From IMG/VR virus record IMGVR_UViG_3300032213_002628, positions 1-33,042 of that record: DNA of 33,042 nucleotides; one strand, 5' to 3'. Positions 1 to 33,042 of the stretch are shown here, piece by piece; positions within the stretch are counted from its first letter, which is position 1, and every line of letters starts with the position of its first letter. Origin of the DNA: a virus. The position numbers were made by a program, and so were the translations under genes. The notes beneath the pieces were generated by a model. That model was not told the DNA's origin. It was given only the letters and a program-made list of their open reading frames with translations, and did not search any database.

Positions 1-123
1 ACAGCCCCCTCACCCTCAAAAAACAAAGTCCCAGTTCAGAGGGCGTCCTTGACGGACATCGGCAAACAGCTTCAGCACCTTGTAAGTGATGAAGCGTTGG
101 TTGGAGTTCGAAGGGCAGTAGCT
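1..123. repeat. Terminal direct repeat, left copy (circular closure)
   Basis: These 123 bases are identical to the last 123 bases of the window (32920-33042). The repeat lies inside a reading frame that continues correctly across the join, so it is best read as the overlap of a circular or circularly permuted assembly. The non-redundant length is then 32,919 bp. A true short terminal repeat on a linear virion genome is possible but less likely, because it would split a gene. Confidence 0.93.
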
Positions 124-195
124 GAACACAAGCGTTCTTCCGCCGGCAGCGGGACCACCCAGGTCAAGTCACATGACTCGAAGGAGACCCGCTAA
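1..195 (+). CDS. Small basic protein of the integration operon (3' part; gene crosses the circle join)
   Basis: This is the C-terminal 64 codons of a gene that starts near the right end (ATG 32884, or 32872) and reads in frame through the join. The whole protein is 76-80 aa, basic and Ser/Lys/Arg-rich, with a probable central helix around SLTDIGKQLQ and a polar C-terminus. No family is recognised. Its stop TAA (193-195) overlaps the ATG of the serine integrase, so the two are probably translationally coupled. Position and size would suit a regulator of integration, or a recombination directionality factor, which serine-integrase phages need for excision. That is inference from context only. 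Confidence 0.7.
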   Translation, partial: TAPSPSKNKVPVQRASLTDIGKQLQHLVSDEALVGVRRAVAEHKRSSAGSGTTQVKSHDSKETR

Positions 196-197
196 TG
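181..197 (+). promoter_or_regulatory. Ribosome binding site and start of the integrase
   Basis: AAGGAG at 181-186 lies 8 bases before the ATG at 195. It sits inside the end of the preceding gene, whose TAA shares its last base with the ATG. This supports ATG 195 as the true integrase start, although the protein has about 45 residues before the recombinase fold begins. Confidence 0.75.
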
Positions 198-3680: not shown

Positions 3681-3718
3681 AAAAATCAGGGGGAAAGGGG
3701 GCCAAAAACATGATTTTT
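3681..3718. repeat. 8-bp A/T inverted repeat around a G-rich run
   Basis: AAAAATCA and TGATTTTT are perfect inverted arms separated by 22 bases that include GGGGGAAAGGGGG. An A/T-rich dyad with a G-rich centre could be a protein-binding site for terminase or a regulator. Confidence 0.55.
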
Positions 3719-6143: not shown

Positions 6144-9100
6144 ATGTCCGTTAGTCTCAACATGCCAGCACAAGGCGACGGACCAATCAGCGGCGAGTAC
6201 GTCACACCAGCTCAACTTAGTCTTGAAGCCACCACACGCGCAAACGCCGACATTGCGTTGCAAGATGACATCGACGCTGGCCGCGTTGGCATGTTCATCG
6301 TTCAGCCAAACGGTGAACACCCATTCTTCGAGAGCATCCAAGACGCCATCGACGCAGCAGTCGAAGAAGGCTACGGACCAGCAGAGCCCGCAATAATCCA
6401 GGTGTACCCTGGCACTTACAACGAAGAAGTGACAATCACAACCAGCGGCATTCACGTGCAAGGCGTTGTCACCGGCGGCACCGCAACCACTGGCACATAC
6501 TCAGTGACGCTTGACGGTTCGCTTGCTGTGATGCTTGACGAGAACAGCCAAGGCGTCACCTCTTGGTCACACATTGACATTCATTCGCAAGGTTCAGCTA
6601 TCAGCCTTGTTGACAACGGCGGGTTCTTGACAAAGTTCCTTGTGAGCAACTGCGTTCTTCGCGGGGGTCGTTTCGAAGACGGCTCAAACTTTGCAGTTGT
6701 GACCTCTGACTCTGGCAACCCTCTTTCAGAGCTTCGCATGAGCAACGTGACGGTTTTTACGCAGAACAACTCTGCCATTGGTGTCTTCGTAGCTAACGGC
6801 AAGTTCATCGGCGCCGACCTTGACATCAACGTGCCAAACACAGAAAACGAGTACGGCAAGGCCGTCATGTTCTTGTCTGGCTCTGCCACCAGCTACGCAA
6901 CGCTGAACAACATTGAGACAGTGGGCACCATCGTCCACCAAGCAGTTGCAGCAATGAGCATCAACATGGCTTACATTCGCGGTGGCGCGTTTGGCGCTAC
7001 CAAGTACGCAGCTGTGCAGCACCTGCACACTGGCGCAATGACGATTGCAAACAGCTTCCTCGCTTGTGAGTCTGCCAACGTCATTGAGAACAACAACCAG
7101 GGCCCGGCTTACTATGCCGGCGTGCTTAACTGGTTGAGCCCTCTTCAAACATTGCCAACCAGCGTTGTTCGTTTGCCAGGCGCCCCCGTTGGGCCCCAGG
7201 GTCCTCAAGGGATCCAGGGCGAGCGCGGTTTGCAAGGGATCCAGGGCGAGCGCGGTTTGCAGGGTATCCAAGGCGAGCGCGGTTTGCAGGGTATCCAGGG
7301 CGAGCGTGGCTTGCAAGGTGAAACAGGTTCGAGCGCTTACGAAGTCGCAGTCGCTAATGGTTTCGTTGGTGACGAAGCCGCTTGGTTGCTTTCTCTAATC
7401 GGAACACCTGGTGCAGACGGAAGTGACGGCGCCGACGGCGCCGACGGCGCAAGCGCTTACGAGATTGCCGTTGCAAACGGCTTCACTGGTACGCAGCCAG
7501 AGTGGCTGACCTCTTTGATCGGTCAACCTGGAACCCCAGGCCAAGACGGCAGCAACGGAAACGACGGAGCCGATGGTGCTGACGGCATCGACGGTTTGAG
7601 CGCTTACGAAATAGCAGTTGCCAATGGCTTCACTGGAACGCAACCAGAGTGGGTTGCTTCTTTAGTTGGAGCCCCAGGTCAAGATGGAAACAACGGAGCC
7701 GACGGTGCCGATGGTGCTGACGGCAACAACGGTTTGACGGCTTACGAAGTAGCTGTAGCAAACGGCTTCACCGGCACGCAGCCAGAGTGGCTGAACTCGT
7801 TAGTTGGTCAACCTGGAACCCCAGGGCAAGACGGGAATGATGGAGCCGACGGAGCCGACGGCGCAAACGCTTATGAAGTTGCAGTCGCTGGTGGTTTCAC
7901 TGGGACACAGCCAGAGTGGCTTGCTTCCCTTATCGGAGCGCCAGGTCAAGACGGCAGCGACGGAATAGATGGAGGCAGCGCTTACGAAGTAGCTGTAGCA
8001 AACGGCTTCATCGGCACGCAATCAGAGTGGCTTGCTTCCCTTATCGGAGCGCCAGGTCAAGACGGCAGCAACGGAAACGACGGCGCGGACGGAAACGACG
8101 GCATCGACGGCGCCAGCGCCTATGAGGTTGCTGTTGCAGCAGGTTTCATTGGAACTCAGGGCGAGTGGCTTGCTTCTTTAGTTGGATCCGCCGGACAAGA
8201 CGGAAACGACGGCGCTGACGGAGCCGATGGCAACACAGGCGCTTCAGCCTACGAAGTCGCGGTTGCCGCTGGCTTCATCGGCACGCAATCAGAGTGGCTT
8301 GCTTCCTTGATTGGAGCGCCAGGTCAAGACGGCAGCAACGGAAGCGACGGAGCCGCCGGCGCGGACGGAGCTTCAGCTTACGAAGTAGCAGTCGCAAACG
8401 GCTTCACTGGAACACAGGCCGAGTGGCTTGCCTCTCTTGTTGGAGCAGCTGGACAAGACGGCAGCGATGGAGCAGACGGCAGCAACGGCGCTGACGCTCA
8501 GTGGTTCTGGACTGGCTTGTACAGTGGTGGCCGCGCTTACGGGATCGGCGACGTTGCTTTCCATGACGGCGATTCTTGGTACCGCATAGACGCACACGGC
8601 GGAAACGTTGGTGACACACCTTTCGAAGGCTCTCAGTACTGGAACTTGGTTGCACGCAAAGGCGCCGATGGCAGTGACGGCAATGACGGCGTTGATGGCG
8701 CAAGCGCCTACGAGGTCGCGATTGCCGCCGGCTTCACCGGCACTCAAGCCGAGTGGCTCGCATCCCTTGTTGGATCCACAGGGCAGGATGGCAACGACGG
8801 AGCCGATGGGCTCGACGGCGCAAGCGCTTACGAGATTGCCGTTGCAAACGGCTTCACTGGTACAGAGCTTGAGTGGCTTGCATCGCTTATTGGTCAAACA
8901 GGCAACGACGGCGCAGATGGCAACGACGGCATTGACGGAGCAACCGCCTACGAAGTAGCTGTAGCAAACGGCTTCATTGGTACACAGCCAGAGTGGCTTG
9001 CGTCGCTTGTTGGAGCAGCTGGCCAAGATGGAGCTGACGGAATCGATGGAGCTTCTGCTTACGAGGTTGCCGTCGCTAACGGCTTCACCGGTACAGAGCT

Positions 9101-12100
9101 TGAGTGGTTGACTTCTCTTATTGGCGCAGCTGGTCAAGACGGAAACGACGGCGCAGACGGCATCGATGGCGCTTCAGCTTACGAAGTAGCTGTAGCAAAC
9201 GGCTTTACAGGCACAGAACTCGAATGGCTTGCGTCGCTTGTTGGAGCTCAAGGATCTGACGGCGCAAGCGCTTACGCGGTTTGGGTGGATGCTGGAAACA
9301 CTGGAACCACGGCAGAGTTCCTTGCTTCGTTGATAGGACAAGACGGCAACGACGCGTACGAAGTAGCTGTGGCAAACGGCTTTGTTGGAGATGAAATCAC
9401 GTGGTTGGCTTCGCTTATTGGAGCAACAGGCGCAAGCGCTTATGAAATCGCAGTGGCCGATGGGTTTATCGGAACGCAAGGCGAGTGGCTTGTTTCGCTC
9501 ATTGGTTCAACTGGACAAGATGGCGCAACCGCCTACGAAGTAGCTGTCGACAACGGCTTCACTGGTACACAGCCAGAGTGGCTTGCTTCACTTGTCGGAG
9601 CCGACGGCACTGACGGAATAGACGGCATTGACGGCATCAACGGCGCTTCAGCTTATGAAGTAGCTGTCAACAACGGTTTCGTTGGAACGCAGGTTGAGTG
9701 GTTGACAGCGCTCAACGGAGACCCAGGCGCCGACGGCATCGACGGCATTGATGGAATCGACGGAGCTACAGCTTACGAAATCGCAGTTGGAAACGGCTTC
9801 ATTGGCACAGAGGCCGAATGGCTGACCTCTTTGATTGGCGCCCCCGGAAGCCCAGGAACCCCAGGCCAAGACGGAGCCGACGGAGCAGACGGCAACACAG
9901 GCGCAAATGCTTATGAAGTTGCAGTCGCTGGTGGTTTCACTGGCACACAGCCAGAGTGGCTTGCATCCTTGATTGGAGCACCTGGTGCAGACGGAGCAGA
10001 CGGCAACACAGGCGCAAGCGCTTACGAAGTAGCGGTTGCCGATGGCTTCATTGGGGACGAAGCTGCTTGGCTTGCCTCGTTGATTGGCCCGCAAGGCCCT
10101 GCTGGTTCCTTTGGCGGCGCGGTGTTTGGCTACAAGTACAGCACCAACACATCAAACACAGACCCTGGTTCTGGCTACTTGAAGTTCAACGCGGCGCTTA
10201 GCTCTGCTGTCGCTCTCTACATCGATCATGAGGACAGTTCAGCTGTTGATGCTTCCGCGTATCTTCAAACGATTGATGACAGCACCTCATTGATCAAGGG
10301 CCACTTCAAAATAACTGAAGTAGGCGCGCCGAACAACTTCGTGTACTACGCCATCAACGGCGTGCACACGCACACCGGCACCTACTTTGAAGTGCCAGTC
10401 ATGTACCTAGCTGGTTCAGTTGCCACAATCGCCAACAACGCAGACGTGAACATCACGTTCGTGCGCACAGGCGACCGCGGCGACAACGGCTTAGGCGGCA
10501 CGGTTGCAGCTTACGGCTCATTCTACTCGACGCTGGACCAGCCAATGGTTTCGATTACTCAAGGCCAGCCAGTCAAGTTCGACTCAATCAACGTAGCAAG
10601 CGCCGTTGCTCTTGAGTCAAACGGCACAGCTTTGACGCACCTGACGATCACCGAAACTGGCACCTATCACATCGGCTTCGCCGGTCAACTGTTTGACAAC
10701 TCAACTTCTAACACCTTGCACACGGCAACGTTCTGGCTTGTCAAGAACGGAAGCACCGCACTGGCTACAGCCTTTGACTCGGCAGTCTCAAAAGGACACC
10801 CAGCTCTCATCAACTGGGATTATCAAGTCGAAGCCGCCGCCGGCGACTACTATGAAGTGTATTGGAACGCGTCAAGCACCGAAGTAAGGCTTGATTTCCT
10901 TAGCGTTCAAAGCAACCCCGCCCGCCCTTCAGTTCCTTCTGCGTTCGTTGTTGTTGAGCAAGTCACGTTTACACAAGCTGGAGCAGACGGCGCAGATGGC
11001 GCTGACGGAGCAGACGGCGCAAGCGCTTACGAAGTAGCTGTAGCAAACGGCTTCACCGGTACGCAAGTTGAGTGGTTGGCAAGCTTGATTGGCGCCGCAG
11101 GCGCAGACGGCATTGACGCCAACCGCATTCTCAGCGGCAACTCTTGGCCAGACGTGAATGTTGGCAACGAAGGCGACTTCTTCCTCTACACGTTCCAAGA
11201 CGAGTTCAGCAACGAAGCCTACATCATCGGCCCCAAAGCCGTTCCGCCAAACATCATCTGGCCAAGTGACCCCGGCTATGACATGGGCAGCAACAACCCA
11301 GCTGCCCCGCCTGACCTTGAGACAAACCTTTCTGGTCTGTACTTGAACACTTCAACGTTTGAGGTGTTTGCGTGGGACTCTGCGACATGGGTGTCAGTTG
11401 GGACAGCAATCACAGGCTCAACGCCCCCGAGCGACGAAGTTGGCACGATTGACTCGTACTACTTCGACACTTCTGGCTTCGATCTTTACGGACCCAAAGT
11501 TGAAGATTCTTGGCCAAACTCAACCAGCTTGACAGGCCCTCAAGGCCCGCAAGGAACCGCTGGCCAGACAGGTCAAAACGGCAACACAATCTACTCAATC
11601 GTGGGCGCACCGCTTGCACTTCTTGGCCGCGTTGGCGAGTATGCCATGGACGTCACAAACAAGAACTTCTATGGACCCAAGACCTCGCACCCAACCACCC
11701 CGTGGTCAAACGTGTTCAGTATGGTTGGTCCAAAGGGCGACACTGGTGAAACCGGCACGGCTGGTTCGTCTGCTTACCAAATCGCTGTCGCGGCTGGCTA
11801 CACCGGCACGCAGTCACAATGGCTTGCTTCACTTGTCGGTGAAAAGGGCGACACCGGCAACACCGGAGAAACAGGCAGCTCAGGCTTGTCTGCTTACCAA
11901 GTTGCCGTCGCCAACGGGTACACCGGCACGCAGTCACAATGGCTTGCTTCACTTGTCGGTGAAAAGGGCGACACCGGAAACACAGGCTCAAGCGCTTATC
12001 AAGTGGCTGTGGCAAACGGCTTCAGCGGCACAGAAGGTCAGTGGCTCACTACCTTGATCGGTGCCCCTGGCGCAAACGGTCAAGACGCGAGCTTAGTGCC

Positions 12101-12926
12101 CACGCACTTCTACGGCAGCGGCATTGACGGCGATGCAACAATCTCTTCAAACACAACCCTTTCACAAGTTCGTGAATACGAAAACCTGACGGTTTCTGCT
12201 GGTGTGACCTTGAACACAGGAGGCTACCCGCTGTTCGTTCGAGGAACACTGACGCTTGGTGCCAACGCTGTGATTTATCGCGACGGCAACAACGCCAGCG
12301 GCATCACTGCCGGTACTGGTCTTGCAGCTAACATCCTTGGCGGCTCTGTTGCCGGCGGCGCAGGCTCAAGTGCTGGAGATGCTTCAGACGGAGTAGCCAC
12401 AACAAACAGCCTTGGCGGTAATGGCGGCGGGTTTGCGTCCAGCTTTGCAGGAGCTAGCGGAACAGCAACGCGCCCAGTTGGTGGATTTGGCGGAGTTTCC
12501 AACGCAACTAACCTGACATCACTCACAACTGGCAACGTCTATGTGGGCGCATCGGCAAACACTAAGCTCACAGGCGGAGCTGGCGGCGGTGGCGGTGGCG
12601 CGGCAAGCGGCACTGGATCAACAGGCGGCGGCGGTGGCGGCGGTGGCGGCGTTGTTGTTGTTTTTGCTTTCAGCATCGTTGCTGGTTCTGGTTCACGCAT
12701 CACTGCCAACGGCGGCAACGGCGCAAACGCCAGCGGCACAACAGCAGCAGGCGGCTCTGGCGGCGGCGGCGGTTTCTGTGCAGTTATCTCAAGCGCAGCA
12801 AAACCAGCTGCTTTGACACATACGGCTTTGGGCGGCACCGGCGGGTCAAAAGTTGGCTCTGGCGCACAATACACAGACGGCGCAGCAGGCAGCGATGGCA
12901 TCGCACGCTTCTACGTCTGGCACTAA
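6144..12926 (+). CDS. Giant collagen-like modular tail fibre (2,260 aa)
   Basis: By far the largest gene, about 20% of the genome. A short N-terminal segment is followed by a probable right-handed beta-helix of pectin-lyase type (about 50-335; it starts FFESIQDAIDAA and VYPGTY). Collagen-like G-X-Y repeats begin near 349. From about 394 to 1970 there are 26 copies of a roughly 25-residue module (AYEVAVANGFTGTQPEWLASL) joined by short collagen runs. Insertions are a carbohydrate-binding-like WTGLYSGG...GD..Y module (about 779-839), a C1q/TNF-like beta domain (about 1320-1610) and a Gly/Asp-rich spacer (about 1655-1790). The last 200 residues are extremely Gly-rich, like adhesin tips. It is expected to be a trimeric, host-binding fibre. 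Its place between terminase and portal, far from the tail genes, is unusual. Confidence 0.93.
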   Translation: MSVSLNMPAQGDGPISGEYVTPAQLSLEATTRANADIALQDDIDAGRVGMFIVQPNGEHPFFESIQDAIDAAVEEGYGPAEPAIIQVYPGTYNEEVTITTSGIHVQGVVTGGTATTGTYSVTLDGSLAVMLDENSQGVTSWSHIDIHSQGSAISLVDNGGFLTKFLVSNCVLRGGRFEDGSNFAVVTSDSGNPLSELRMSNVTVFTQNNSAIGVFVANGKFIGADLDINVPNTENEYGKAVMFLSGSATSYATLNNIETVGTIVHQAVAAMSINMAYIRGGAFGATKYAAVQHLHTGAMTIANSFLACESANVIENNNQGPAYYAGVLNWLSPLQTLPTSVVRLPGAPVGPQGPQGIQGERGLQGIQGERGLQGIQGERGLQGIQGERGLQGETGSSAYEVAVANGFVGDEAAWLLSLIGTPGADGSDGADGADGASAYEIAVANGFTGTQPEWLTSLIGQPGTPGQDGSNGNDGADGADGIDGLSAYEIAVANGFTGTQPEWVASLVGAPGQDGNNGADGADGADGNNGLTAYEVAVANGFTGTQPEWLNSLVGQPGTPGQDGNDGADGADGANAYEVAVAGGFTGTQPEWLASLIGAPGQDGSDGIDGGSAYEVAVANGFIGTQSEWLASLIGAPGQDGSNGNDGADGNDGIDGASAYEVAVAAGFIGTQGEWLASLVGSAGQDGNDGADGADGNTGASAYEVAVAAGFIGTQSEWLASLIGAPGQDGSNGSDGAAGADGASAYEVAVANGFTGTQAEWLASLVGAAGQDGSDGADGSNGADAQWFWTGLYSGGRAYGIGDVAFHDGDSWYRIDAHGGNVGDTPFEGSQYWNLVARKGADGSDGNDGVDGASAYEVAIAAGFTGTQAEWLASLVGSTGQDGNDGADGLDGASAYEIAVANGFTGTELEWLASLIGQTGNDGADGNDGIDGATAYEVAVANGFIGTQPEWLASLVGAAGQDGADGIDGASAYEVAVANGFTGTELEWLTSLIGAAGQDGNDGADGIDGASAYEVAVANGFTGTELEWLASLVGAQGSDGASAYAVWVDAGNTGTTAEFLASLIGQDGNDAYEVAVANGFVGDEITWLASLIGATGASAYEIAVADGFIGTQGEWLVSLIGSTGQDGATAYEVAVDNGFTGTQPEWLASLVGADGTDGIDGIDGINGASAYEVAVNNGFVGTQVEWLTALNGDPGADGIDGIDGIDGATAYEIAVGNGFIGTEAEWLTSLIGAPGSPGTPGQDGADGADGNTGANAYEVAVAGGFTGTQPEWLASLIGAPGADGADGNTGASAYEVAVADGFIGDEAAWLASLIGPQGPAGSFGGAVFGYKYSTNTSNTDPGSGYLKFNAALSSAVALYIDHEDSSAVDASAYLQTIDDSTSLIKGHFKITEVGAPNNFVYYAINGVHTHTGTYFEVPVMYLAGSVATIANNADVNITFVRTGDRGDNGLGGTVAAYGSFYSTLDQPMVSITQGQPVKFDSINVASAVALESNGTALTHLTITETGTYHIGFAGQLFDNSTSNTLHTATFWLVKNGSTALATAFDSAVSKGHPALINWDYQVEAAAGDYYEVYWNASSTEVRLDFLSVQSNPARPSVPSAFVVVEQVTFTQAGADGADGADGADGASAYEVAVANGFTGTQVEWLASLIGAAGADGIDANRILSGNSWPDVNVGNEGDFFLYTFQDEFSNEAYIIGPKAVPPNIIWPSDPGYDMGSNNPAAPPDLETNLSGLYLNTSTFEVFAWDSATWVSVGTAITGSTPPSDEVGTIDSYYFDTSGFDLYGPKVEDSWPNSTSLTGPQGPQGTAGQTGQNGNTIYSIVGAPLALLGRVGEYAMDVTNKNFYGPKTSHPTTPWSNVFSMVGPKGDTGETGTAGSSAYQIAVAAGYTGTQSQWLASLVGEKGDTGNTGETGSSGLSAYQVAVANGYTGTQSQWLASLVGEKGDTGNTGSSAYQVAVANGFSGTEGQWLTTLIGAPGANGQDASLVPTHFYGSGIDGDATISSNTTLSQVREYENLTVSAGVTLNTGGYPLFVRGTLTLGANAVIYRDGNNASGITAGTGLAANILGGSVAGGAGSSAGDASDGVATTNSLGGNGGGFASSFAGASGTATRPVGGFGGVSNATNLTSLTTGNVYVGASANTKLTGGAGGGGGGAASGTGSTGGGGGGGGGVVVVFAFSIVAGSGSRITANGGNGANASGTTAAGGSGGGGGFCAVISSAAKPAALTHTALGGTGGSKVGSGAQYTDGAAGSDGIARFYVWH
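7209..7316 (+). repeat. Four tandem 27-bp repeats encoding collagen-like triplets
   Basis: Four adjacent copies (7209, 7236, 7263, 7290) of a 27-bp unit encode G-I-Q-G-E-R-G-L-Q. Copies 1 and 2 are identical; copies 3 and 4 differ at a few third-codon positions. They form the first collagen-like stretch of the fibre. Such perfect in-frame repeats let fibre length change by slippage or recombination. Confidence 0.9.
7327..12060 (+). repeat. 26 degenerate repeats of the AYEVAVANGF...EWLASL module
   Basis: Reading the protein gives 26 copies of a module of pattern AYEVAVxxGFxGTxxEWLASLxG, each followed by 3 to 24 residues of G-X-Y repeats rich in Asp (GADG, GIDG). Copies 1-22 lie between about 7327 and 10090, copy 23 near 11020 and copies 24-26 between about 11765 and 12060. 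The last three have Gln in place of Glu (AYQ, SQWLASL) and Lys/Thr-rich collagen runs (GEKGDTGNTG), so they form a second sub-family. Confidence 0.9.
11799..11977 (+). repeat. 59-bp exact direct repeat within the fibre gene
   Basis: The 59 bases at 11799-11857 recur exactly at 11919-11977, 120 bases later, while the flanking codons differ. A 47-bp identical pair also occurs at 7912-7958 and 8023-8069. Exact DNA identity including third-codon positions points to recent duplication or gene conversion between modules. Confidence 0.88.
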
Positions 12927-13153: not shown

Positions 13154-15126
13154 TGGCAGTTGTACAAAGCGAGAGCGGACTGCTTGCAGTTGGCGTCTCA
13201 ACGAAGGCCAACGGCAATAACCCGTTCATGACGTTGTTTGACGGAGACGGCAAGACACTGGCCGAGCTCTACAAAACCCAGCCAGAAGTTCGCGCCTGCG
13301 TTGACTTTCTTTCGCGCAACATTGGGCAACTTCCTCTGCACGCGTTTGAGCGCATCAGTGACAACGACCGCACCCGCATCACTGGCACAGAGCTCACTGC
13401 AACGCTGGAAGCCCCTGCGCCTGGCGTCACTAAGACTCGCTGGCTCACCGAGCTGGTCAGCGACTTGGCAGTGCACGGCAACAGCTATCACCTTAAGGTT
13501 CGCTCTGGCGACAAGTTGGCCCTGGTTCGCCTGCCGCCTGCCATGATTGAAGTCGAAGGCAACTGGCTTAGGCCTGAGCTCTACACAGTCAAAGGCTCAA
13601 ACAAGCAGCAGACCTACAAGCGCGACCAGATTGTACACATTCAGTTCGGCTACAACCCCGACGACCCACGCGTTGGACTCTCGCCGCTTGAGACGTTGCG
13701 CACTGTGCTGGCTGAACAAGCAGCCGCCGGCAAATACCGCGAAAGCTACTGGAAGAACGCTGCTCGCATGGGAGGCGTGATTGAGCGCCCACAAGGTGCA
13801 CCCGTCTGGAGCGAGACAGCACGTTCGCGCTTCAAGGCCGACTGGGATGCGCAGAACACTGGCGCCGCGTCTTCTGGCCGCACGGCAATCCTAGAAGAAG
13901 GCATGACGTTCAAAACCTCTTCGTTCTCTGCCCGTGACAGCCAGTACATGGAGAGCTTTCAACTAACCCGCGAAGTCGTGGCGACTGCTTACGGCATACC
14001 CATTGGCTTGCTTGGCTTGGGCACCTTCACCTACGCGTCGCTGTCTGAGCAACACCGCCAGCTCTACGCTGACTGTTTGGCGCCGTGGCTTGTCCTCATT
14101 CAAGAAGAGCTCGAGCAGCAGCTGCTACCTGAGTTCTTGACAACGCCTGGCATCTACTTGGAGTTCTCAATCGACGCCAAGTTGCAAGGCAGCTTGCTGG
14201 AGCGTGCGCAGATCTTCCAGGCAACGGTTGGTGCCCCTTACATCACCCGCAACGAGGCACGCGCAAAGCTCAACCTTCCTGCCATTGACGGCGGCGACGA
14301 GCTTGTCACGCCTTTGAACGTTCTCACCGGCGGACAGGCAAGCCCTCAAGACAGCGTCCCAACCGAGCGCATTCTGGAGACCCCAAAGTCAGCAGAGCCA
14401 ACAGTCTCAACCGTTGAGCCTGACTCAGCAAAGGCGCTCAAAGCACAAGACCGCAACGAGCGCGTGCGCCAGTTCGTACGACAGCGTGACCGCAAGGCAA
14501 ACGCTCTGGCTGCCGTGATTGCAAAGGCCGTCGAACGCCAACGCAACATCACCCTTTCAAAGCTTGGCGCAAAGGCAGCACCAGCTGCCGCGTTTGACCG
14601 TAAGCGCTTTGCCAAGGAACTTGCAGCTGACCTTGAGCCCCAGCTTGTCGAGATTGCAGGAGCGTTTGGCACCGACGTGGCCGACCGCTATGGCGTAAAC
14701 TTCAATCCCAAAGGCATGCAGAACTTCAACAAGGCTTTGAGCAAGGGCGCAGCTGACCAGTTTGCGCTCTCGCTGAACGGCGCGATTGACGACGCTTGGG
14801 ATGATGAAGAAGACCCGCAAGCAGCAGTCACGGCAGCGTTTGACAAGCAAGACAGCCACGGCGCCATGATTGCTCTCTCTCTTGTCACCACAGTAGCAAC
14901 CACTGCCCGAGCTGAAGCTGCCGGCAGCGCTAACGCGTTCAAGACGTGGATCGTGACAGCACCAAACCCACGCGAAAGCCATGCGGCTCTTGACGGTGTC
15001 ACCATTCCATTCAACGAGACGTTCAGCAACGGCTTACGTTGGCCTGGAGACAGCGCCGCTGACAACGCCGACGAGAAGGCCGGATGCACCTGCGTGCTCG
15101 AGTTCGACTTTGAGGGCGTCCAATAA
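13153..15126 (+). CDS. Portal protein fused to a MuF-like head morphogenesis domain
   Basis: A 657-aa protein. Residues 30-410 match HK97-family portals: an N-terminal VRACVDFLSRNIGQLP motif, LAVHGNSYHL, the IVHIQFGYNPDDPRVGLSPL segment, and a late AYGIPIGLLGLG and YITRNEARAKLNLP. After an Ala/Lys/Arg-rich helical region (430-580), the C-terminus (about 595-657) is MuF-like, with RESHAALDG, a PGD and a closing CTCVLEF. The portal forms the DNA entry ring; MuF domains are minor head components often fused to portals in actinophages. It starts at ATG 13153, overlapping the preceding stop by one base. Confidence 0.93.
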   Translation: MAVVQSESGLLAVGVSTKANGNNPFMTLFDGDGKTLAELYKTQPEVRACVDFLSRNIGQLPLHAFERISDNDRTRITGTELTATLEAPAPGVTKTRWLTELVSDLAVHGNSYHLKVRSGDKLALVRLPPAMIEVEGNWLRPELYTVKGSNKQQTYKRDQIVHIQFGYNPDDPRVGLSPLETLRTVLAEQAAAGKYRESYWKNAARMGGVIERPQGAPVWSETARSRFKADWDAQNTGAASSGRTAILEEGMTFKTSSFSARDSQYMESFQLTREVVATAYGIPIGLLGLGTFTYASLSEQHRQLYADCLAPWLVLIQEELEQQLLPEFLTTPGIYLEFSIDAKLQGSLLERAQIFQATVGAPYITRNEARAKLNLPAIDGGDELVTPLNVLTGGQASPQDSVPTERILETPKSAEPTVSTVEPDSAKALKAQDRNERVRQFVRQRDRKANALAAVIAKAVERQRNITLSKLGAKAAPAAAFDRKRFAKELAADLEPQLVEIAGAFGTDVADRYGVNFNPKGMQNFNKALSKGAADQFALSLNGAIDDAWDDEEDPQAAVTAAFDKQDSHGAMIALSLVTTVATTARAEAAGSANAFKTWIVTAPNPRESHAALDGVTIPFNETFSNGLRWPGDSAADNADEKAGCTCVLEFDFEGVQ

Positions 15127-16694
15127 TGGAAGCCCCGCAGTGGATGAGCGAGAACGCCAAGCGCGGCGTTGAATGGTACGAGGCCGGCTTTGCAGGCGAC
15201 GGCGTGCAGCCGCAAACAGTCCGAGAGGCTCGCGAGATGGCAGCAGGAACAGTCTCAGAGGAGAAGGCTGTGCGAATGGCTGCTTGGTTTGCAAGGCACA
15301 TGGGCGACTTGAACGGCGTGCCACAAGACCAAGACCCGCCGACGCCTGGCATGGTTGCACACGCCTTGTGGGGAGGCTGGCCGCGTGAGGAGTCGCAAAA
15401 GGCGATGCTGTGGGCAAGAGAGAACAGCCCCAAGAGCCTGAAAGCACCAGGAGACGCGGCAGTGATCACAGACCTTGACGACACCTTGGTCGCCGGCACC
15501 GAGCCAAACGAAACCGTTCTGGCTTGGCTGCTGGCTGCCAGGGCTAGCGGGTATCAAGTCATCATAGTTTCTGGCCGACAAGACACGCGCTTGGAAGAGA
15601 CCAGAGCTTGGCTCAACGAGTACGAAGTGCCGCACGATGCCGTGTATCTGAGCGACTTCCCTGCTGGCCCAAACGCAGCCACAGCGTTCAAGCTCTACAA
15701 AGCCGAGAAACTGCTGGAAGAAGGGCTGGAAATCGAGGCTTGGCTGGACGACAACGGCGACGTTCGAGAAGGCCTTGAGCGGCTTGGGATCGATGCCTAT
15801 GCCCCGACACGGTTGCCAGGTCTAGAAGATTCAGAAGACAACCAACCAACCGAAGACGACCCCGACAACAACCAACCCAACGACATGTCACAGACACCAA
15901 AGTCAGGCACAGATTACGAAGGAAACACAATGCAGTTCAAGACCTACTCAGCAACACTCACCACAGACAGCGCAAACGGCACCGTTGAGGCTGTCGTCTC
16001 TGTGTTCAACAACACGGACCTTGTCAACGACCGCGTGATGCCTGGAGCGTTCGCCAAGTCGCTCGAGGATTATGCCACCACCGGTCGCACCATTCCTTTC
16101 GTTTGGTCGCATGACTACGACACCCCCGAGAGCTACATCGGCAAAGTTGTGGACGCCAAAGAGACAAGCGAAGGCCTTCTTGTGAAGGCTGAACTCTTCG
16201 ACACCCCGCGCGCTCAGGTTGTGCGTGAGCTGCTCGTGAACCGCGTTGTTTCCGAGTTCTCTTTCGCCTACGACGTCGTGCATCAGGCCAAAGCAGCCGA
16301 CGGCGTGAATGAGCTGACCCAGCTGAACCTGCTCGAGTGTGGCCCAACCTTGCGCGGTGCCAACCCAATGACCCGCCTGATTGACGCCAAAGCAGCCAAG
16401 GTCGAAGACGTCCCAGAGGCCGAACTAGAGACCAAGGACGCCCCAGAGTTGCCAAACATCAAGGCGGGCCGCACACTTTCCAGCAAGAACGAAGCAACGC
16501 TGACAGAGGCCCACGACTTGCTCAATCAAGCAGCCGAAGCCCTGAAGGCAGTGTTGAGTTCTGTGCAGCAACAAAGCACTGAAGAGGCCAAGTCCGAGGA
16601 GCTTCCAGAACTGGAAGCCAAGGCCGAGGAGCCAACAGTGACAGACCCCAGCACCATGCTGGCGCTGTTGAAGCTCATTGAGCTTGACAACTAA
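15126..16694 (+). CDS. Three-domain head protein: actinophage N-domain, HAD phosphatase-like domain and prohead protease
   Basis: A 522-aa frame. Residues 1-100 form a conserved actinophage domain (WYEAGFAGDGVQPQTVREAREMAAG is typical). Residues 115-235 are a HAD-superfamily, polynucleotide-phosphatase-like domain: motif I DLDDT, a SGR in motif II and an LDDNGD motif late in the domain, so the catalytic residues look intact. After a Gln/Asn/Asp/Pro linker, residues 269-425 are an S78 prohead protease, with His329 in WSHD and Ser379 in SFAY as likely catalytic residues. The rest is a Lys/Glu-rich tail, perhaps a scaffold-like region. The gene overlaps the portal stop and directly precedes the major capsid gene. 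A good internal start at 15930 could make the protease alone. Confidence 0.88.
   Translation: MEAPQWMSENAKRGVEWYEAGFAGDGVQPQTVREAREMAAGTVSEEKAVRMAAWFARHMGDLNGVPQDQDPPTPGMVAHALWGGWPREESQKAMLWARENSPKSLKAPGDAAVITDLDDTLVAGTEPNETVLAWLLAARASGYQVIIVSGRQDTRLEETRAWLNEYEVPHDAVYLSDFPAGPNAATAFKLYKAEKLLEEGLEIEAWLDDNGDVREGLERLGIDAYAPTRLPGLEDSEDNQPTEDDPDNNQPNDMSQTPKSGTDYEGNTMQFKTYSATLTTDSANGTVEAVVSVFNNTDLVNDRVMPGAFAKSLEDYATTGRTIPFVWSHDYDTPESYIGKVVDAKETSEGLLVKAELFDTPRAQVVRELLVNRVVSEFSFAYDVVHQAKAADGVNELTQLNLLECGPTLRGANPMTRLIDAKAAKVEDVPEAELETKDAPELPNIKAGRTLSSKNEATLTEAHDLLNQAAEALKAVLSSVQQQSTEEAKSEELPELEAKAEEPTVTDPSTMLALLKLIELDN
15918..15932 (+). promoter_or_regulatory. Internal ribosome binding site and ATG for the protease domain
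   Basis: GAAGGA (15918-15923) lies 6 bases before an in-frame ATG at 15930, exactly where the S78 protease domain begins. This is a better ribosome binding site than those of several confirmed genes here. It suggests a second, 254-aa protein (protease plus tail) made from the same frame. Confidence 0.6.
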
Positions 16695-27423: not shown

Positions 27424-27627
27424 ATGACCTGGAGAGACAAAGCAGCTTGCAAAGCAATGGGCGTGGCCGCGTTCTTCTCACGCCGCGAGACGCCTGCAAA
27501 CCAGCAAGCGCTCTCAGCTTGTTCTGGGTGCCAGGTCAAAGCAGAGTGCTTGACCTATGTCAAGGCCACCGAGGGTGACGGCTTGCGCTACGGCATCTGG
27601 GGAGCTACCCAAGCTAGCGACCGCTAA
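27424..27627 (+). CDS. whiB: WhiB-family Fe-S regulator
   Basis: A 67-aa WhiB-like protein, a family found in Actinobacteria and their phages. The four iron-sulfur ligands are present: Cys9, then Cys33-x2-Cys36-x5-Cys42. The WRDKAAC start and the GIWG turn (57-60) are family hallmarks; the turn is followed by Ala rather than the usual second Gly. The basic C-terminal tail that binds DNA in many host WhiB proteins is missing; the protein ends 7 residues after the turn. Host WhiB proteins act by binding sigma factor region 4, and the mycophage TM4 homologue down-regulates the host gene. ATG 27424 is the only usual start; its ribosome binding site is weak. The gene is convergent with an HTH gene, the stop codons overlapping. 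Confidence 0.92.
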   Translation: MTWRDKAACKAMGVAAFFSRRETPANQQALSACSGCQVKAECLTYVKATEGDGLRYGIWGATQASDR

Positions 27628-27869
27628 GGCTGTGCCGGCCTTGGTGCTGGCTTCAAGAGCGACTGCACAACCCAGCGGCTAACGCCAAGCGACGCGGCAA
27701 TCTTGCGAACGCTCTTGCCTTGCTTGTGCATGTTGATGACAGCACCCTCGCGAAGGCTGGCAATAACGAGTCGCTCAGACTCCACCTCTTGAAGCCACTT
27801 GGTGCACATCTGTGCGAGCTCTTCTTCTGTGTTGGCGTTCTTGAGCTGGTTGGAAATGTCAAAAGGCAT
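27624..27869 (-). CDS. Small HTH DNA-binding protein (81 aa)
   Basis: Start ATG 27869 on the leftward strand. The N-terminal half is helical and acidic (NTEEELAQMCTKWLQEVESE), and the C-terminal half has a helix-turn-helix of resolvase/AraC-like pattern (GKSVRKIAASLGVSRWVVQS), followed by a Pro-rich end. It lies divergently from the RecT-led early operon, with 107 bases between the start codons. It is thus well placed to control that operon and could be the lysogeny or early repressor; this is inference. Its stop overlaps the WhiB stop in a tail-to-tail arrangement. Confidence 0.78.
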   Translation of the reverse strand: MPFDISNQLKNANTEEELAQMCTKWLQEVESERLVIASLREGAVINMHKQGKSVRKIAASLGVSRWVVQSLLKPAPRPAQP

Positions 27870-27929
27870 GCCATGAACAGTCCGTCCGTGGCCCAAGCCG
27901 CACACGACGCCACATGGTTGCAAAAACCG

Positions 27930-27959
27930 TTGCTGGCCTGCGTGCGCATTCTTTCTAGT
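27930..27959 (+). promoter_or_regulatory. Possible early promoter before the RecT operon
   Basis: TTGCTG (27930-27935) and TCTAGT (27954-27959) are spaced by 18 bases. Both match the usual boxes only partly. Transcription would begin about 10 bases before ATG 27977, a very short leader. The position, between divergent HTH and early genes, is where a controlled promoter is expected. Confidence 0.35.
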
Positions 27960-27976
27960 GGCGCACCTTGGAAGGC

Positions 27977-28858
27977 ATGCAAGCCACATCATCACCCCTC
28001 ACAATCATCGACGACCAACAAGCCTGGACAACCGAACAGGTCGCCGCTCTACGCCAGCTTGGAGCAGACAAGGCCACAAGCCACGACCTGCAACTCTTCT
28101 TCCACCAATGCAAGGCCACAGGGCTTGACCCGTTCCGTCGCCAGATCTACCTAATCGGACGCTTTGACAGTAGAGCAGGCACGACCAAGTACGTCGCCCA
28201 AACCAGCATTGACGGCTACCGCATCGTGGCGGACCGTTCAGGCGTGTTTGCAGGGTGTGAGGAGACGTGGCAGACAGACGCAAACGGACGCCTTCTCAGC
28301 GCCACCGTGGTCGCTCGTAAGGTCGTTGCCGGCATCGTCTGCGAGTTCTCAGCAACCGCGCACTGGGACGAATACGTCCAGACCACCCGCGAAGGCAAGC
28401 CAATGGGTCTGTGGGCAAAGCTGCCGCACCGCATGCTCAGCAAATGCGCAGAGGCCACCAGCTTGCGCCGTGCGTTTGCAAACGAGCTGGGCGGCATCTA
28501 CACCGCCGAAGAGATGCAGCAATCAGACCAAGCAGCGCCGCCGATCTTGAACTGGCCAAAGCAGCCAGCAGAGCCAAAGCAGCCAGAAGCTGAAGCAGCG
28601 CCGATTGAAGAGGACTTGTTCGATATCTCAATCGAACCGCAGCCAGAACCAGCGGCAACATCAGCAGCCCCGCCAAAGGCCATCACGGCTTCACAGGTCA
28701 AGCGCGTGCATGCCCTGACTACGAAACTTGGCATTTCCGACGAGCAGTATCGCGCCCGCTTGTCGTCGCTGTATGAGGTGACCACAAGCAAGGACCTCAC
28801 TCAAGCCCAAGCCGCTGACTTGATTCGCCGCCTTGAAGAAGCAAGCCCAAAGGCCTGA
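27977..28858 (+). CDS. RecT/Bet-like single-strand annealing protein
   Basis: A 293-aa recombination protein. The family core lies at about 40-190: a DLQLFFHQCKATGLDPFRRQ start, QIYLIGRF, the QTSIDGYRIVADRSGVFAG motif, and KLPHRMLSKCAEATSLRRAFANELGGIYTAEEM. A Pro/Glu/Ala-rich linker follows (about 195-235). The C-terminal domain (about 237-293) reads ASQVKRVHALTTKLGISDEQ and resembles the small domain of Mu gp16-like proteins. It would pair complementary DNA strands during phage recombination. ATG 27977 has almost no ribosome binding site (GGAAGG only one base away), so a short or absent leader is possible. No matching exonuclease gene was seen. Confidence 0.88.
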   Translation: MQATSSPLTIIDDQQAWTTEQVAALRQLGADKATSHDLQLFFHQCKATGLDPFRRQIYLIGRFDSRAGTTKYVAQTSIDGYRIVADRSGVFAGCEETWQTDANGRLLSATVVARKVVAGIVCEFSATAHWDEYVQTTREGKPMGLWAKLPHRMLSKCAEATSLRRAFANELGGIYTAEEMQQSDQAAPPILNWPKQPAEPKQPEAEAAPIEEDLFDISIEPQPEPAATSAAPPKAITASQVKRVHALTTKLGISDEQYRARLSSLYEVTTSKDLTQAQAADLIRRLEEASPKA

Positions 28859-28861
28859 GCC

Positions 28862-29077
28862 ATGGGTGAGCGATTACCGATTGAACCACTGCAACAAGCA
28901 GTGAGAGCCAAGAGCTTGCGCGACTTTCTTGCAGCGTGTGACATCAACCACAGACGCTACAAGCAAATGCTCGAGAGAGGCTTGAGTATCAAGACAGCTG
29001 ACACCGTTGCAACGCGCTGTGGCTTTCACCCTGCTGAAGTTTGGCCGCAATGGCTCGACGTGCTTGCAGCATGCTAA
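28862..29077 (+). CDS. Small HTH-type protein of actinophages (71 aa)
   Basis: A 71-aa helical protein starting 3 bases after the RecT gene. A helix-turn-helix-like part (SLRDFLAACDINHRRYKQML) is followed by the pattern TADTVATRCGFHPAEVWPQW. Small actinophage DNA-binding proteins commonly end in such a domain. It lacks a dimerisation region. It may be a regulator or a replication accessory protein. The RusA-like gene starts within its last codons (ATGCTAA). Confidence 0.75.
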   Translation: MGERLPIEPLQQAVRAKSLRDFLAACDINHRRYKQMLERGLSIKTADTVATRCGFHPAEVWPQWLDVLAAC

Positions 29078-29460
29078 CGCTGATCTTTGAAGCGCCGAAC
29101 AGGCCGTTGAGCATCAACGAAGCCAACGGCATGCACTGGGCAGCCAAGCGGCGTCGTTTGGAGCCTTGGCGCGACGCTGTGTGGCTCGCCTGGAAGACGC
29201 TCGACCCTAAAGAGCTCGACGCCTTCTTGAAAGACCATGGCGTCATTGAAGTGGCCGTCACGTTGCCGTTTGCAAGAGCTGGCAGGCGTGATCCGCATAA
29301 CTACACGTCGACGATGGCAAAGGCCATTGTAGACGAACTTGTCAAGTCTGGCATGGCGCCAGATGACACCCCAGAGTTCGTGACAGTTTCCGAGCCCAAG
29401 CTGCTTGTCAGTTCGAGTCTTGTCGCGACTGTGGAGCTAACCAAAAGGAGAACAATGTGA
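29071..29460 (+). CDS. RusA-like Holliday junction resolvase
   Basis: A 129-aa RusA-family nuclease expected to cut branched DNA before packaging. ATG 29071 is chosen because it overlaps the preceding stop and gives the family-typical start (LTLIFEAPNRPLSINEANG); longer in-frame starts lie inside the previous gene. The catalytic region has RRDPHNYTSTMAKAIVDEL and GMAPDDTPEFV. In E. coli RusA the first motif is RDxDN; here the second Asp is replaced by His, a variant I recall from other actinophages. The remaining acidic residues are kept. It overlaps the next gene by GTGA. Confidence 0.85.
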   Translation: MLTLIFEAPNRPLSINEANGMHWAAKRRRLEPWRDAVWLAWKTLDPKELDAFLKDHGVIEVAVTLPFARAGRRDPHNYTSTMAKAIVDELVKSGMAPDDTPEFVTVSEPKLLVSSSLVATVELTKRRTM

Positions 29461-29810
29461 ACAAGACCTTAAAGCTTATGGAGGGCGTGAAGCCCAAGAA
29501 CAGGCTCTCAGAAGACAGGCCAATCGACATCAACAACACGATTGAGTTCTTAAAGCGCTACGACATCACAACGGTGTTCGTGAAGGTGGCAAACGAGGAC
29601 ACTGACGGCATGCGCCAATGCGTCCATTGCCACAAAGTGCAACCAGTCGTCAACTACGTCGCCAAACGCCTGCGTGAGCCCAAGCGCAAGTACTTCAGAT
29701 CAAAGGTTGCTGAACAGCGCAAAGAGAACCCTTCTACAAACATTCGCGTCTGTATGACGTGCCGCACAGAGCAAGGCGTCAACTGGCGCAAAGGCTTGAG
29801 CGACAAGTGA
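29457..29810 (+). CDS. Hypothetical zinc-ribbon-like protein (117 aa)
   Basis: Starts at GTG 29457 inside the RusA-like gene's stop. Two Cys pairs (Cys55-x2-Cys58 and Cys99-x2-Cys102) are 40 residues apart and could form one zinc ribbon around a very basic helix (RLREPKRKYFRSKVAEQRKE). No family is recognised. Its place between resolvase and helicase suggests a DNA or RNA binding role in replication. Overlapping starts at both ends support translation. Confidence 0.72.
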   Translation: MNKTLKLMEGVKPKNRLSEDRPIDINNTIEFLKRYDITTVFVKVANEDTDGMRQCVHCHKVQPVVNYVAKRLREPKRKYFRSKVAEQRKENPSTNIRVCMTCRTEQGVNWRKGLSDK

Positions 29811-31414
29811 GCAGGAACGCGCCACCAGTAAATCAACTGGCAGAACAAGAGCTCTTAGGCGCTTGCATCACCAGCCGCGAAGCGCTCAACATAGTCGTCG
29901 ATCAGATTGAACCTTCTACGTTTTACACGCCAGCGCACGCGACAGTCTATGCCGCGGCATGCCGTGCTGCTATTGAAGGAGAGCTGACCCCGTCTGCCGT
30001 AGTTGAAGCCCTACGCGGCAGCAACGAACTGGGGATGATTGGCGGCGAAAAGCTGATTGAGAGCCTGGCAGAGAAAGCCTGCCACAAGGACGACGTGATG
30101 AAGATTGCTGGGATTGTTCACGACCTTCACCGCAAACGCGAAACCATCGTAGCAGCTCGGGAAGTCGCTCAGACCGTACTCGAAGGCGGAGACGACGCCA
30201 GCGCGTTTGAGCGCCTACTGGCAGCACGCAGCGCCACAAGCTCAAACAGTGGATGGACAGAGCTTGGCGGCATCGTCACCGCAGTGATCGAGGGCACTCA
30301 CAAACGCCAAGAGCCGACGATGCTGGAACGTGAAGACGGCGCGTGCTTGCTGTATGAAGCAAAGCTGAACTGGATTGCCGGGCCGCCCGAGTCTCAAAAG
30401 AGCTACCTGGCCGTGCTTGCTTTGGTGCAAGAGATGGAGAAAGGCCGCCCCGTCGTCTACGTCGATTTCGAAGAGTCAGACGGCATCACCATTGGCGAGC
30501 GTTTGGTGGCTGTGGCGACAGCACGCGGCGTTATGCCTGACATTCTCATGCAATGGACTCAGGGCACTGATCGTCTCTTCTTCTACACCAACGCCCGAAC
30601 CCTCACAAACAAAGTAAGAGCAAAGGTCTTGCAAGTGATTCGCAACGGCGCTCGCTTGGTCATTCTTGACGGCTGTGCCGCGGCAATGGGTGCTGCCAAC
30701 CTTGAAGAGGACAAAGCCAAGGACGTCTCGCTCTGGCTCAGTGGGTCCGTGTGGCCGTTCGTGCAGGCCTCTGCCGGCGTTCTTGTGATTGACCACGTGG
30801 TCAAGAGCAGCGGCGCCCCAGGCACAACCAGCGGCTTTGCAGCGCGCTCACCTCGTGGGTCTGGCGCCAAGCTTGCAGCTGTCTCTGGCGTGACCTTGAT
30901 GGCTGAACCAAAAGAAGCAGGATCAGCCTTCACAGAAGGCCGCGTCGAGATCAGCATTACCAAGGACCGCCCCGGCCGAGTCCGTGTCATCAAGCGCGGC
31001 GTGCGCCGTTTGGCAGGAATGCTCATCAGCACCCCGGTCAACATCGAAGGCATTGAAGCCACCTTGTTGCGAGTTGTCGATCCAGAGGACGATCAAGACG
31101 GTGAGTTGGCAGCTGAAGAACGCAAAGCCAAGTGGGCACGCGTTGCAGCACAGCAAATCAGCCGCGCACTGAAAGAGAACAGAGAACCGATGAGTAAGAC
31201 ACAGATTCGAGAAGCGCTTGCACAACGAGCAGCCGACAATGGACGCAAAGGCCTGCGCGGCGAAACCGTCGTCGAAGGGTTTGACTTCCTCGTGGCCAAC
31301 GGTTGGGCAGAGCTTAGCAAGGAAGGGCGCGAACAACGCCTGACTTTGATTCGTGAGTACGACGAGAAGTACGGCAACTTGAAACCTGAAGACGTGACAG
31401 AGGACCCCTTCTAA
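29807..31414 (+). CDS. DnaB-N/RecA-type ATPase (replicative helicase-like)
   Basis: A 535-aa protein from GTG 29807 (GTGA overlap). Residues 8-110 are a DnaB-like N-terminal domain (LAEQELLGACITSREALNIV). Residues 170-400 are a RecA-fold ATPase of the AAA_25/RepA type, with Walker B LVILD (284-288). Walker A is GPPESQKS (192-199), where the usual Gly before Lys is Gln197. YVDFEES (218-224) and VLVIDHVVK (325-333) are typical of the family. The C-terminal part (about 440-535) looks like a winged helix (MSKTQIREALAQRA). It is likely the helicase or loader of phage replication. No primase or polymerase gene accompanies it, so host enzymes would do the rest. It overlaps the sigma gene by one base. 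Confidence 0.85.
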   Translation: MSRNAPPVNQLAEQELLGACITSREALNIVVDQIEPSTFYTPAHATVYAAACRAAIEGELTPSAVVEALRGSNELGMIGGEKLIESLAEKACHKDDVMKIAGIVHDLHRKRETIVAAREVAQTVLEGGDDASAFERLLAARSATSSNSGWTELGGIVTAVIEGTHKRQEPTMLEREDGACLLYEAKLNWIAGPPESQKSYLAVLALVQEMEKGRPVVYVDFEESDGITIGERLVAVATARGVMPDILMQWTQGTDRLFFYTNARTLTNKVRAKVLQVIRNGARLVILDGCAAAMGAANLEEDKAKDVSLWLSGSVWPFVQASAGVLVIDHVVKSSGAPGTTSGFAARSPRGSGAKLAAVSGVTLMAEPKEAGSAFTEGRVEISITKDRPGRVRVIKRGVRRLAGMLISTPVNIEGIEATLLRVVDPEDDQDGELAAEERKAKWARVAAQQISRALKENREPMSKTQIREALAQRAADNGRKGLRGETVVEGFDFLVANGWAELSKEGREQRLTLIREYDEKYGNLKPEDVTEDPF

Positions 31415-32286
31415 TGTCGCAGCTTCCTCAATACATTGTCGCGATGGCAAGCGACCCGGCGAATGCCCCGGCATCAAAAGAGCGCATGGCTGAACTTGCC
31501 GACATAATCACAGCTGCCCGCGAAGCTCGAGCGCTCGACGCCATGAGCCCACGTCTAAAACGCCAAGAAGCCCAAGCCCAAGAAGAGCTCATGCGACGAA
31601 ACATTCGCCTTGTTATCTCAATCGCCCAAAGCTACAAGCACCGCATGGACGTCGAGGACCTCATCGGAGCAGGAAACGTCGCAGTCGTGAAAGCTGTAAA
31701 GGCCTGGGCCCCGGACATTGGGCCCCTTGCCCCTTGGTTATTTCGCTGGATCCGCTCAGCCATGAACCGCGCTGTGGACGCAGCCCGCACCATCAGGCTA
31801 CCCGAAGAGCTAGCCTACAGCGCCGCCATTGCCGTGAAGCAGCGCCAAGCCCTTGAAGATGCCATGGGCCGGGAAGTTAGCCTGGAAGAGCTTTCAGAAC
31901 TCATGGAGACCACCCCAGAAGCCCTTGAGACGCTCTTGAACCTGCCGCACGCTACAACGACGCTGGACAGCTCTGCAAAGGGCTCAGAAGGCCGCACAAC
32001 AGGGAAAGACAGCCTTGGCACCGATCCAGAGCTTGACCCCTCTGCCATAGCTCAACGGCATGACCTTGCAACCCGTCTGGAACTGGCCATGCAGGAGCTC
32101 ACAGCAACCGAAGCCATGGTGATTCATGCTCGCTTCAGGCTGGACGGACCTGGAGAGATCCCCACGCTGTTGCAGCTTGGAGAAGCCATGGACATGAGCC
32201 GAGAGAACATTCGAAAGCTGGAAGCGTCAGCCTTGGCCAAGCTCAGGCACCCAGCGCTCAAGACGGCGCTGCTGGAACTGCTCTAG
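31414..32286 (+). CDS. Phage-encoded sigma-70 family RNA polymerase sigma factor
   Basis: A 290-aa sigma factor with the layout of primary (RpoD-like) sigma factors. Region 2 (about 58-130) contains LMRRNIRLVISIAQSYKHRM, DLIGAGN, and ARTIRLP; region 3 (131-180) and a Ser/Gly-rich insert (about 183-208) follow. Region 4 (about 218-280) contains LTATEAMVIHARF and the helix MSRENIRKLEASALAKLRHP. The residues that read the -35 box in E. coli sigma-70 (R584, E585, R588) are kept as Arg263, Glu264 and Arg267. The -10 readers Q437 and T440 are Ser115 and Asn118, and W433 is Arg111. It is the last gene of the early operon, well placed to switch on later genes. Its stop overlaps a leftward gene at CTAG. 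Confidence 0.93.
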   Translation: MSQLPQYIVAMASDPANAPASKERMAELADIITAAREARALDAMSPRLKRQEAQAQEELMRRNIRLVISIAQSYKHRMDVEDLIGAGNVAVVKAVKAWAPDIGPLAPWLFRWIRSAMNRAVDAARTIRLPEELAYSAAIAVKQRQALEDAMGREVSLEELSELMETTPEALETLLNLPHATTTLDSSAKGSEGRTTGKDSLGTDPELDPSAIAQRHDLATRLELAMQELTATEAMVIHARFRLDGPGEIPTLLQLGEAMDMSRENIRKLEASALAKLRHPALKTALLELL

Positions 32287-32883: not shown

Positions 32884-33042
32884 ATGCCCACACTTGGCGG
32901 CACAGCTTCAATCATGAAGACAGCCCCCTCACCCTCAAAAAACAAAGTCCCAGTTCAGAGGGCGTCCTTGACGGACATCGGCAAACAGCTTCAGCACCTT
33001 GTAAGTGATGAAGCGTTGGTTGGAGTTCGAAGGGCAGTAGCT
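32884..33042 (+). CDS. Small basic protein of the integration operon (5' part; gene crosses the circle join)
   Basis: The N-terminal part of the gene that ends at position 195. Three in-frame ATGs are possible: 32872 (MGIRMPTLGG), 32884 (MPTLGGTASIM) and 32914 (MKTAPSPS). None has a clear ribosome binding site. If transcription starts near 32870, the leaderless ATG 32872 would be used, giving 80 aa. The listed start gives 76 aa. The window ends inside the gene only because the circle was cut here. Function is discussed with the 3' part. Confidence 0.65.
   Translation, partial: MPTLGGTASIMKTAPSPSKNKVPVQRASLTDIGKQLQHLVSDEALVGVRRAVA
32920..33042. repeat. Terminal direct repeat, right copy
   Basis: Identical to bases 1-123. 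See the left copy. Confidence 0.93.

Follow-up and report, generated by a model that had tools for sequence, protein, structure and literature searches.

A divergent sigma-70 family factor with altered −10-reading residues in a small actinobacteriophage genome

Which promoters would a host RNA polymerase read when its sigma factor comes from a phage, with familiar −35-reading residues and an unfamiliar −10-reading surface? The question is raised by the last gene of a replication operon in IMG/VR record IMGVR_UViG_3300032213_002628, analysed as a single stretch of 33,042 nucleotides (the window). We think it moderately likely that the product is an alternative sigma-70 family factor, steering host core polymerase to promoters with a non-canonical −10 element. 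One survey found sigma factors in about 13% of phages (PMC9429907).

The two ends of the window (1–123 and 32920–33042) repeat exactly over 123 bp, and the window therefore maps as a complete circle of 32,919 bp. It encodes TerS/TerL, portal, protease, capsid, tail tube, tape measure and a VanY-type endolysin; the other genes encode a serine integrase, which marks a temperate lifestyle, an HNH protein, a WhiB-like (Wbl) protein, RecT, RusA, a DnaB-like helicase and the sigma factor. The principal features are:

1–123, plus strand: terminal repeat, exact copy of 32920–33042
195–1934, plus strand: large serine recombinase/integrase, from profile matches
27424–27627, plus strand: WhiB-like (Wbl) protein, 67 residues, with N-terminal Trp, Phe-Phe and GIWG motifs
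27968–28858, plus strand: RecT/Bet-type annealing protein, opening the early-type operon; start codon uncertain
29041–29460, plus strand: RusA-like resolvase, in the operon with sigma and present also in the relative G078
29759–31414, plus strand: DnaB-like replicative helicase/ATPase, directly 5′ of sigma in the same operon; a 44% identical gene holds the equivalent place in G078
31414–32286, plus strand: sigma-70 family sigma factor, 290 residues, with regions 1.2, 2, 3, 3.2 linker and 4, from profile matches and predicted structure

Gene content points to the host. WhiB is an actinobacterial family (PMC10202952), and the WhiB-like gene (PF02467, E 2.5e-11) gave tblastn matches in which every named host genus belonged to an actinophage; among 14 control genomes, only Corynebacterium matched. 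Along its full length the portal shares about 39% identity with those of Arthrobacter phages, the nearest among described phages. With a WhiB-like gene and actinophage-type virion genes, the window belongs with the actinobacteriophages, and on these sequence grounds the host is an actinobacterium.

Several other features of the map deserve record. The TerL and portal genes are separated by the gene for a 2260-residue protein (6144–12926) with collagen-like and ~120-nucleotide repeats; the protein matches tail-fibre PHROGs, and the location is odd for a fibre. The head protease gene (15126–16694) begins with a HAD/polynucleotide-kinase-phosphatase-like stretch, followed by the S78 prohead protease domain. 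The RecT protein (27968–28858) has a GemA-like carboxyl-terminal stretch (PF06252, at the cut-off), the only part that aligns in G078. A small minus-strand open reading frame with a weak helix-turn-helix match (27624–27995) faces the RecT operon, and may be a regulator or part of a lysis-lysogeny switch. Past the integrase region, the strong GC hairpin GAACCCCCGGCCTTCAAGCCGGGGGTTC (2211–2240) is a likely terminator that has no T tract.

The preliminary description had recognized an RpoD-like sigma factor ending an early operon, and both the gene and its coordinates proved correct. The open reading frame matches Pfam Sigma70_r2 (E 2e-11) and Sigma70_r4 (E 8e-13), along with PHROG 351, "RNA polymerase sigma factor" (E 6e-32). 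It follows RecT, RusA and the DnaB-like gene as last member of the operon, its ATG and the DnaB-like stop codon having one base in common. Bit scores exceed the curated cut-offs for r2 (43.9 against 24) and r4 (48.2 against 24.1), and fall below it for r3 (20.8 against 25.3); region 3 nonetheless is modelled as helices (131–151, 157–164, and 168–179, mostly at high confidence). Regions 2 and 4 with region 3 between them define the group 1–3 types of the family, among which the phage protein belongs; it is no group 4 (ECF) factor, since those have regions 2 and 4 and no region 3. Group 1 (primary) factors are marked by region 1.1, the WW dyad, and Q437: the phage protein has R433-W434 and S437 and no region 1.1, its alignment beginning at E. 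coli sigma-70 residue 95. It departs likewise from group 2 factors, which have primary-like −10 residues, through W430, R433, S437, and a deletion at 444.

The predicted structure (mean pLDDT 87, pTM 0.54) contains helices for regions 1.2, 3 and 4, and an unbroken helix (105–124) spanning regions 2.3–2.4; a low-confidence stretch (about 181–210) corresponds to the 3.2 linker. The model aligns to E. coli sigma-70 residues 95–611 and to actinobacterial SigA with Z of about 17 over 278–280 residues, at an overall rmsd of about 17 Å that probably reflects domain placement. Such complete architecture, seen in profile matches and in a confident model, supports assignment as an alternative sigma factor. 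The regions that bear on promoter recognition are:

31648–31689, plus strand: region 2.2, residues 79–92, presumed β′-clamp contact face; Q406G, E407A, and G411A
31726–31785, plus strand: region 2.3–2.4 helix, residues 105–124; W108, R111, W112, S115, and N118 at positions 430, 433, 434, 437, and 440
31801–31824, plus strand: start of region 3.0, residues 130–137; Glu for His at 455 and Tyr for Glu at 458
32164–32250, plus strand: region 4.2 helix-turn-helix, residues 251–279; R263, E264, and R267 at positions 584, 585, and 588

Residues were compared, in E. coli numbering, with a panel of 127 sigma factors. Position 433, Arg in the phage protein, is Trp in 106 panel members (also 8 Tyr, 7 Pro, 3 Gln, and one each of Ser, Asn and Thr) and Arg in none. 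Position 437, Ser here, is Gln in 115, Gly in 11, and Ala in one. The preliminary description had listed 433, 437 and 440 as altered, to be refuted by an alignment with canonical residues at all three. The alignment upholds the first two; it gives no alteration at 440, where Asn is found in two panel members (Thr in 84, Ser in 18, and others) and where Thermus aquaticus SigA (PDB 1ku2) has Asn as well.

As aligned, the changes extend well beyond that list. Position 430, invariably Tyr or Phe in the panel, is Trp (Y430W); the F427-A431 (FSTYA) motif is replaced; single residues are deleted before 427 and at 444; and the extended −10 residues are changed (H455E and E458Y). Region 2.2 carries Q406G, E407A, and G411A, of which Q406 and E407 are nearly invariant elsewhere and belong to the face that we take, from the textbook assignment, to contact the β′ clamp. 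Altogether, 14 of 23 conserved columns depart in regions 2.2–2.4, versus six of 23 in regions 2.1 and 4.

Could this be an ordinary sigma factor acquired from a host and still reading the host consensus? The top scores do go to primary-type sigmas, with RpoH and SigB/F/G models far lower, and N118 is a normal residue at 440. However, R433, S/T437, W430, and the 444 deletion occur in no panel sigma, and the phage sequences fall outside all host rows of the tree described below; we consider this explanation very unlikely.

The most informative relative is G078 (IMGVR_UViG_3300010389_000135), a 24-kb contig whose gene order, TerS-TerL-portal-capsid-...-WhiB-RecT-RusA-DnaB-sigma, matches that of the window. 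Identities are 56% for TerL, 42% for portal, 45% for capsid, and 47% for tail tube, and the sigma proteins are about 38% identical. The G078 sigma has R433, W430, W419, and Thr at 437, with one-residue deletions at 398, before 430, and at 444; it is changed also at 406, 407, 411, 455, 458, 586, and 589. (The gap near 425 is placed differently in the two proteins, making equivalences at 425–429 less sure than those at 430–441.) Because R433, W430, the deletions, and a hydroxyl at 437 are common to so distant a sequence, the comparison argues that the remodelling of region 2 is inherited, and points to function rather than decay or noise. The order WhiB ... RecT-RusA-DnaB-sigma, with the same one-base overlap in both genomes, further supports the alternative sigma factor.

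A maximum-likelihood tree unites the two proteins (support 100/98); their stem measures 1.17 changes per column, and they fall outside both the host group 1/2 sequences and those of group 3. The split that sets them apart from group 1/2 has support of only 92/88, and long branches leave the deeper placement unsure. The clade consists of two full sequences, both from metagenomes. A third contig, G093 (IMGVR_UViG_3300010885_044419), reads RecT-RusA-DnaB-WhiB and ends within an apparent sigma amino terminus resembling that of G078 (a short match, judged by eye). Under the handles G093, L427 and L370, two WhiB genes were seen on one 15.7-kb contig, one of them directly 5′ of the truncated sigma start.

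Searching viral contigs with sigma alone found nothing close; TerL relatives lack sigma; and the closer virion relatives (L173, L175, L333, L334, and L360) are fragments without the early region. The DnaB-like gene had no match in 396 plus 198 sampled genomes, a sampling by which absence says little. Among 50,697 phage records, tblastn with the phage sigma matched 37, with no named actinophage even at E 5. Many "phage" database matches (Efs 1-1-1, human fecal scaffolds, and rpoD beside ST147-VIM1phi7.1) were set aside, as they look like bacterial DNA with host rpoD.

What might the altered residues do? In published sigma biology, Q437 and T440 act at promoter position −12, and W433/W434 form a wedge at the −12/−11 junction. 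Substitutions Q437H and T440I alter the −12 preference, and R584/E585 read the −35 element (PMC2613000); W433A slows promoter opening two- to threefold (PMC4593229). Alternative sigma factors have other wedges, HW in E. coli sigma-32 (RpoH) and QR in sigma-28 (FliA), with a different −10 element and activity in the order WW>HW>QR (PMC10216364). Because of these roles, and because sigma factors with non-WW wedges are alternative ones, a protein with R433, W430, and S/T437 is expected to melt DNA differently and to favour another −12 base. With its opening and reading surface rebuilt in the same fashion in the distant G078, the phage factor probably guides polymerase to start sites of another set.

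The same losses could instead signify relaxed specificity: a −10 surface that no longer discriminates, in a protein whose main effect would be to compete with host SigA and so reduce its transcription. Q437, H455, E458, FSTYA, and the core contacts Q406/E407 all are lost, and cyanophage-derived sigma factors are reported to repress host growth (in work cited in PMC9878933), which counts for a competitor role. But relaxation does not predict that W430 and R433 recur in the distant G078, nor is it what one expects of a protein with region 4 and fold so well preserved. We judge it improbable. For the alternative sigma factor itself, the loss of Q406/E407 in both genomes is an adverse point, as these putative β′-clamp contacts leave core binding not assured.

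Region 4 looks more conventional. R584, E585 and R588 are all present, as the preliminary description had stated, and His279-Pro280 is kept (E. coli 600–601; by motif, H516-P517 of sigma-A). The normal TTGAC-like −35 that it had predicted is less secure: close by, Asn and Lys stand where 119 and 115 of the 127 panel sigmas have R586 and Q589, both positions being altered in G078 as well. Because R584 is Gly in G078, the −35 preference appears uncertain, and this too speaks against the alternative sigma factor.

Region 4 also is where a WhiB-like partner might act. By docking on region 4, either in the phage sigma or in host SigA, the Wbl protein would add upstream DNA contacts, offsetting a weak region 2, and promoters would need both proteins. 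Wbl binding requires a region 4 His (H516; PMC10245118), and both phage sigmas retain the His-Pro pair, which is variable among other viral sigmas, although it is also the ancestral primary-sigma sequence. Each of the three genomes with this sigma, whole or just begun, has a Wbl gene (in G093 directly before the sigma start), compared with a single one of the 24 further records searched, most of them fragments. The window protein has W3, F17-F18, and GIWG at interface positions, numbered against WhiB1. However, WhiB is present in 24% of actinophages anyway (PMC10117723); wbl precedes RecT, and does not adjoin sigma, in the window and G078; and the G093 Wbl that does adjoin sigma has Arg instead of the GIWG Trp. 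Co-occurrence and interface residues thus are suggestive only, and we regard such a partnership as unlikely. Decidedly improbable, in our estimate, is a self-contained pair in which a sigma with rebuilt −10 and melting surface and weakened core contacts, joined by a region 4-bound WhiB-like iron-sulphur protein, defines a phage-only promoter class in an actinobacterium.

The favoured alternative sigma factor suggests the following sequence. Made from the early-type replication operon, the protein would bind host core RNA polymerase and direct it to phage promoters whose −10 and melting requirement depart from the host consensus, a largely RpoD-like region 4 reading the −35 side. During opening, Arg111 would stand in place of wedge Trp433, Trp108 in place of Tyr430, the expected cradle of the flipped −11 base, and Ser115 (Thr in G078) in place of the −12 reader Gln437. 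That the gene closes the operon suggests manufacture early and use later, making a role in middle or late transcription plausible.

Searches for the promoter itself were unsuccessful. A consensus scan found 0 and 2 matches, versus 3.7 and 3.3 expected from shuffles, and the repeat families lie mostly inside the tail-fibre gene. In a two-block search of intergenic segments a single exact −10 candidate was shared, where 0.76 was expected, no excess; near matches numbered 25 versus 13, the shuffles having kept single-base composition only. No recurring promoter motif emerged from the intergenic DNA, which weighs against an alternative sigma factor. TTGACC at 3717, 5′ of the terminase genes, is a candidate by eye only.

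Comparable systems are already known. Full-length sigma factors had been called uncommon in small siphoviruses, a view to be qualified by cyanophages S-CBS3 (33.0 kb), S-CBS1 (30.3 kb), and KBS-S-2A (40.7 kb): these 30–41 kb siphoviruses likewise carry a short, full-domain sigma-70 gene, which in S-CBS3 follows RusA and ssb genes (compare RusA upstream in the window). The cyanophage factors are group 2-like (rpsD4 in S-CBS1 and S-CBS3), and those of S-CBS3 and KBS-S-2A, unlike the window sigma, keep FSTY, WW, and Q437. The window sigma is 27% identical to that of S-CBS3 and has another position in the tree; S-CBS and KBS hosts are cyanobacterial.

Closer in setting are phages E7 and F5 of 'Ca. 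Nanopelagicales' (39 kb; PMC10202952), which encode a WhiB-like protein and a sigma-70 family factor. Theirs is assigned to TIGR02943, whereas the best NCBIfam matches of the window sigma are RpoD/RpoS-type models, TIGR02943 not being among the 25 listed; the two differ in model assignment. The window protein shares with RpoH and FliA a replaced WW wedge, RW being a further replacement, yet lies far nearer to RpoD/RpoS models than to RpoH. With actinobacterial SigA/HrdB and RpoD it shares regions 1.2–4.2 and fold; unlike them, it lacks region 1.1 and has changed signature residues in regions 2.2–2.4 and 3.0. Sigma factors in small siphoviruses, and sigma with WhiB in freshwater actinophages, thus have precedent; the window sigma adds a new, divergent variant to a kind already known.

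Knowledge of −10 reading by sigma-70 derives mostly from near-invariant residues. Natural, inherited changes at 430, 433, 437, 455, and 458, together with the deletions, in a sigma otherwise complete, offer a way to test which residues determine −10 specificity and melting. Moreover, the phage sigma may give a first means of studying gene timing in an actinophage that carries a sigma factor.
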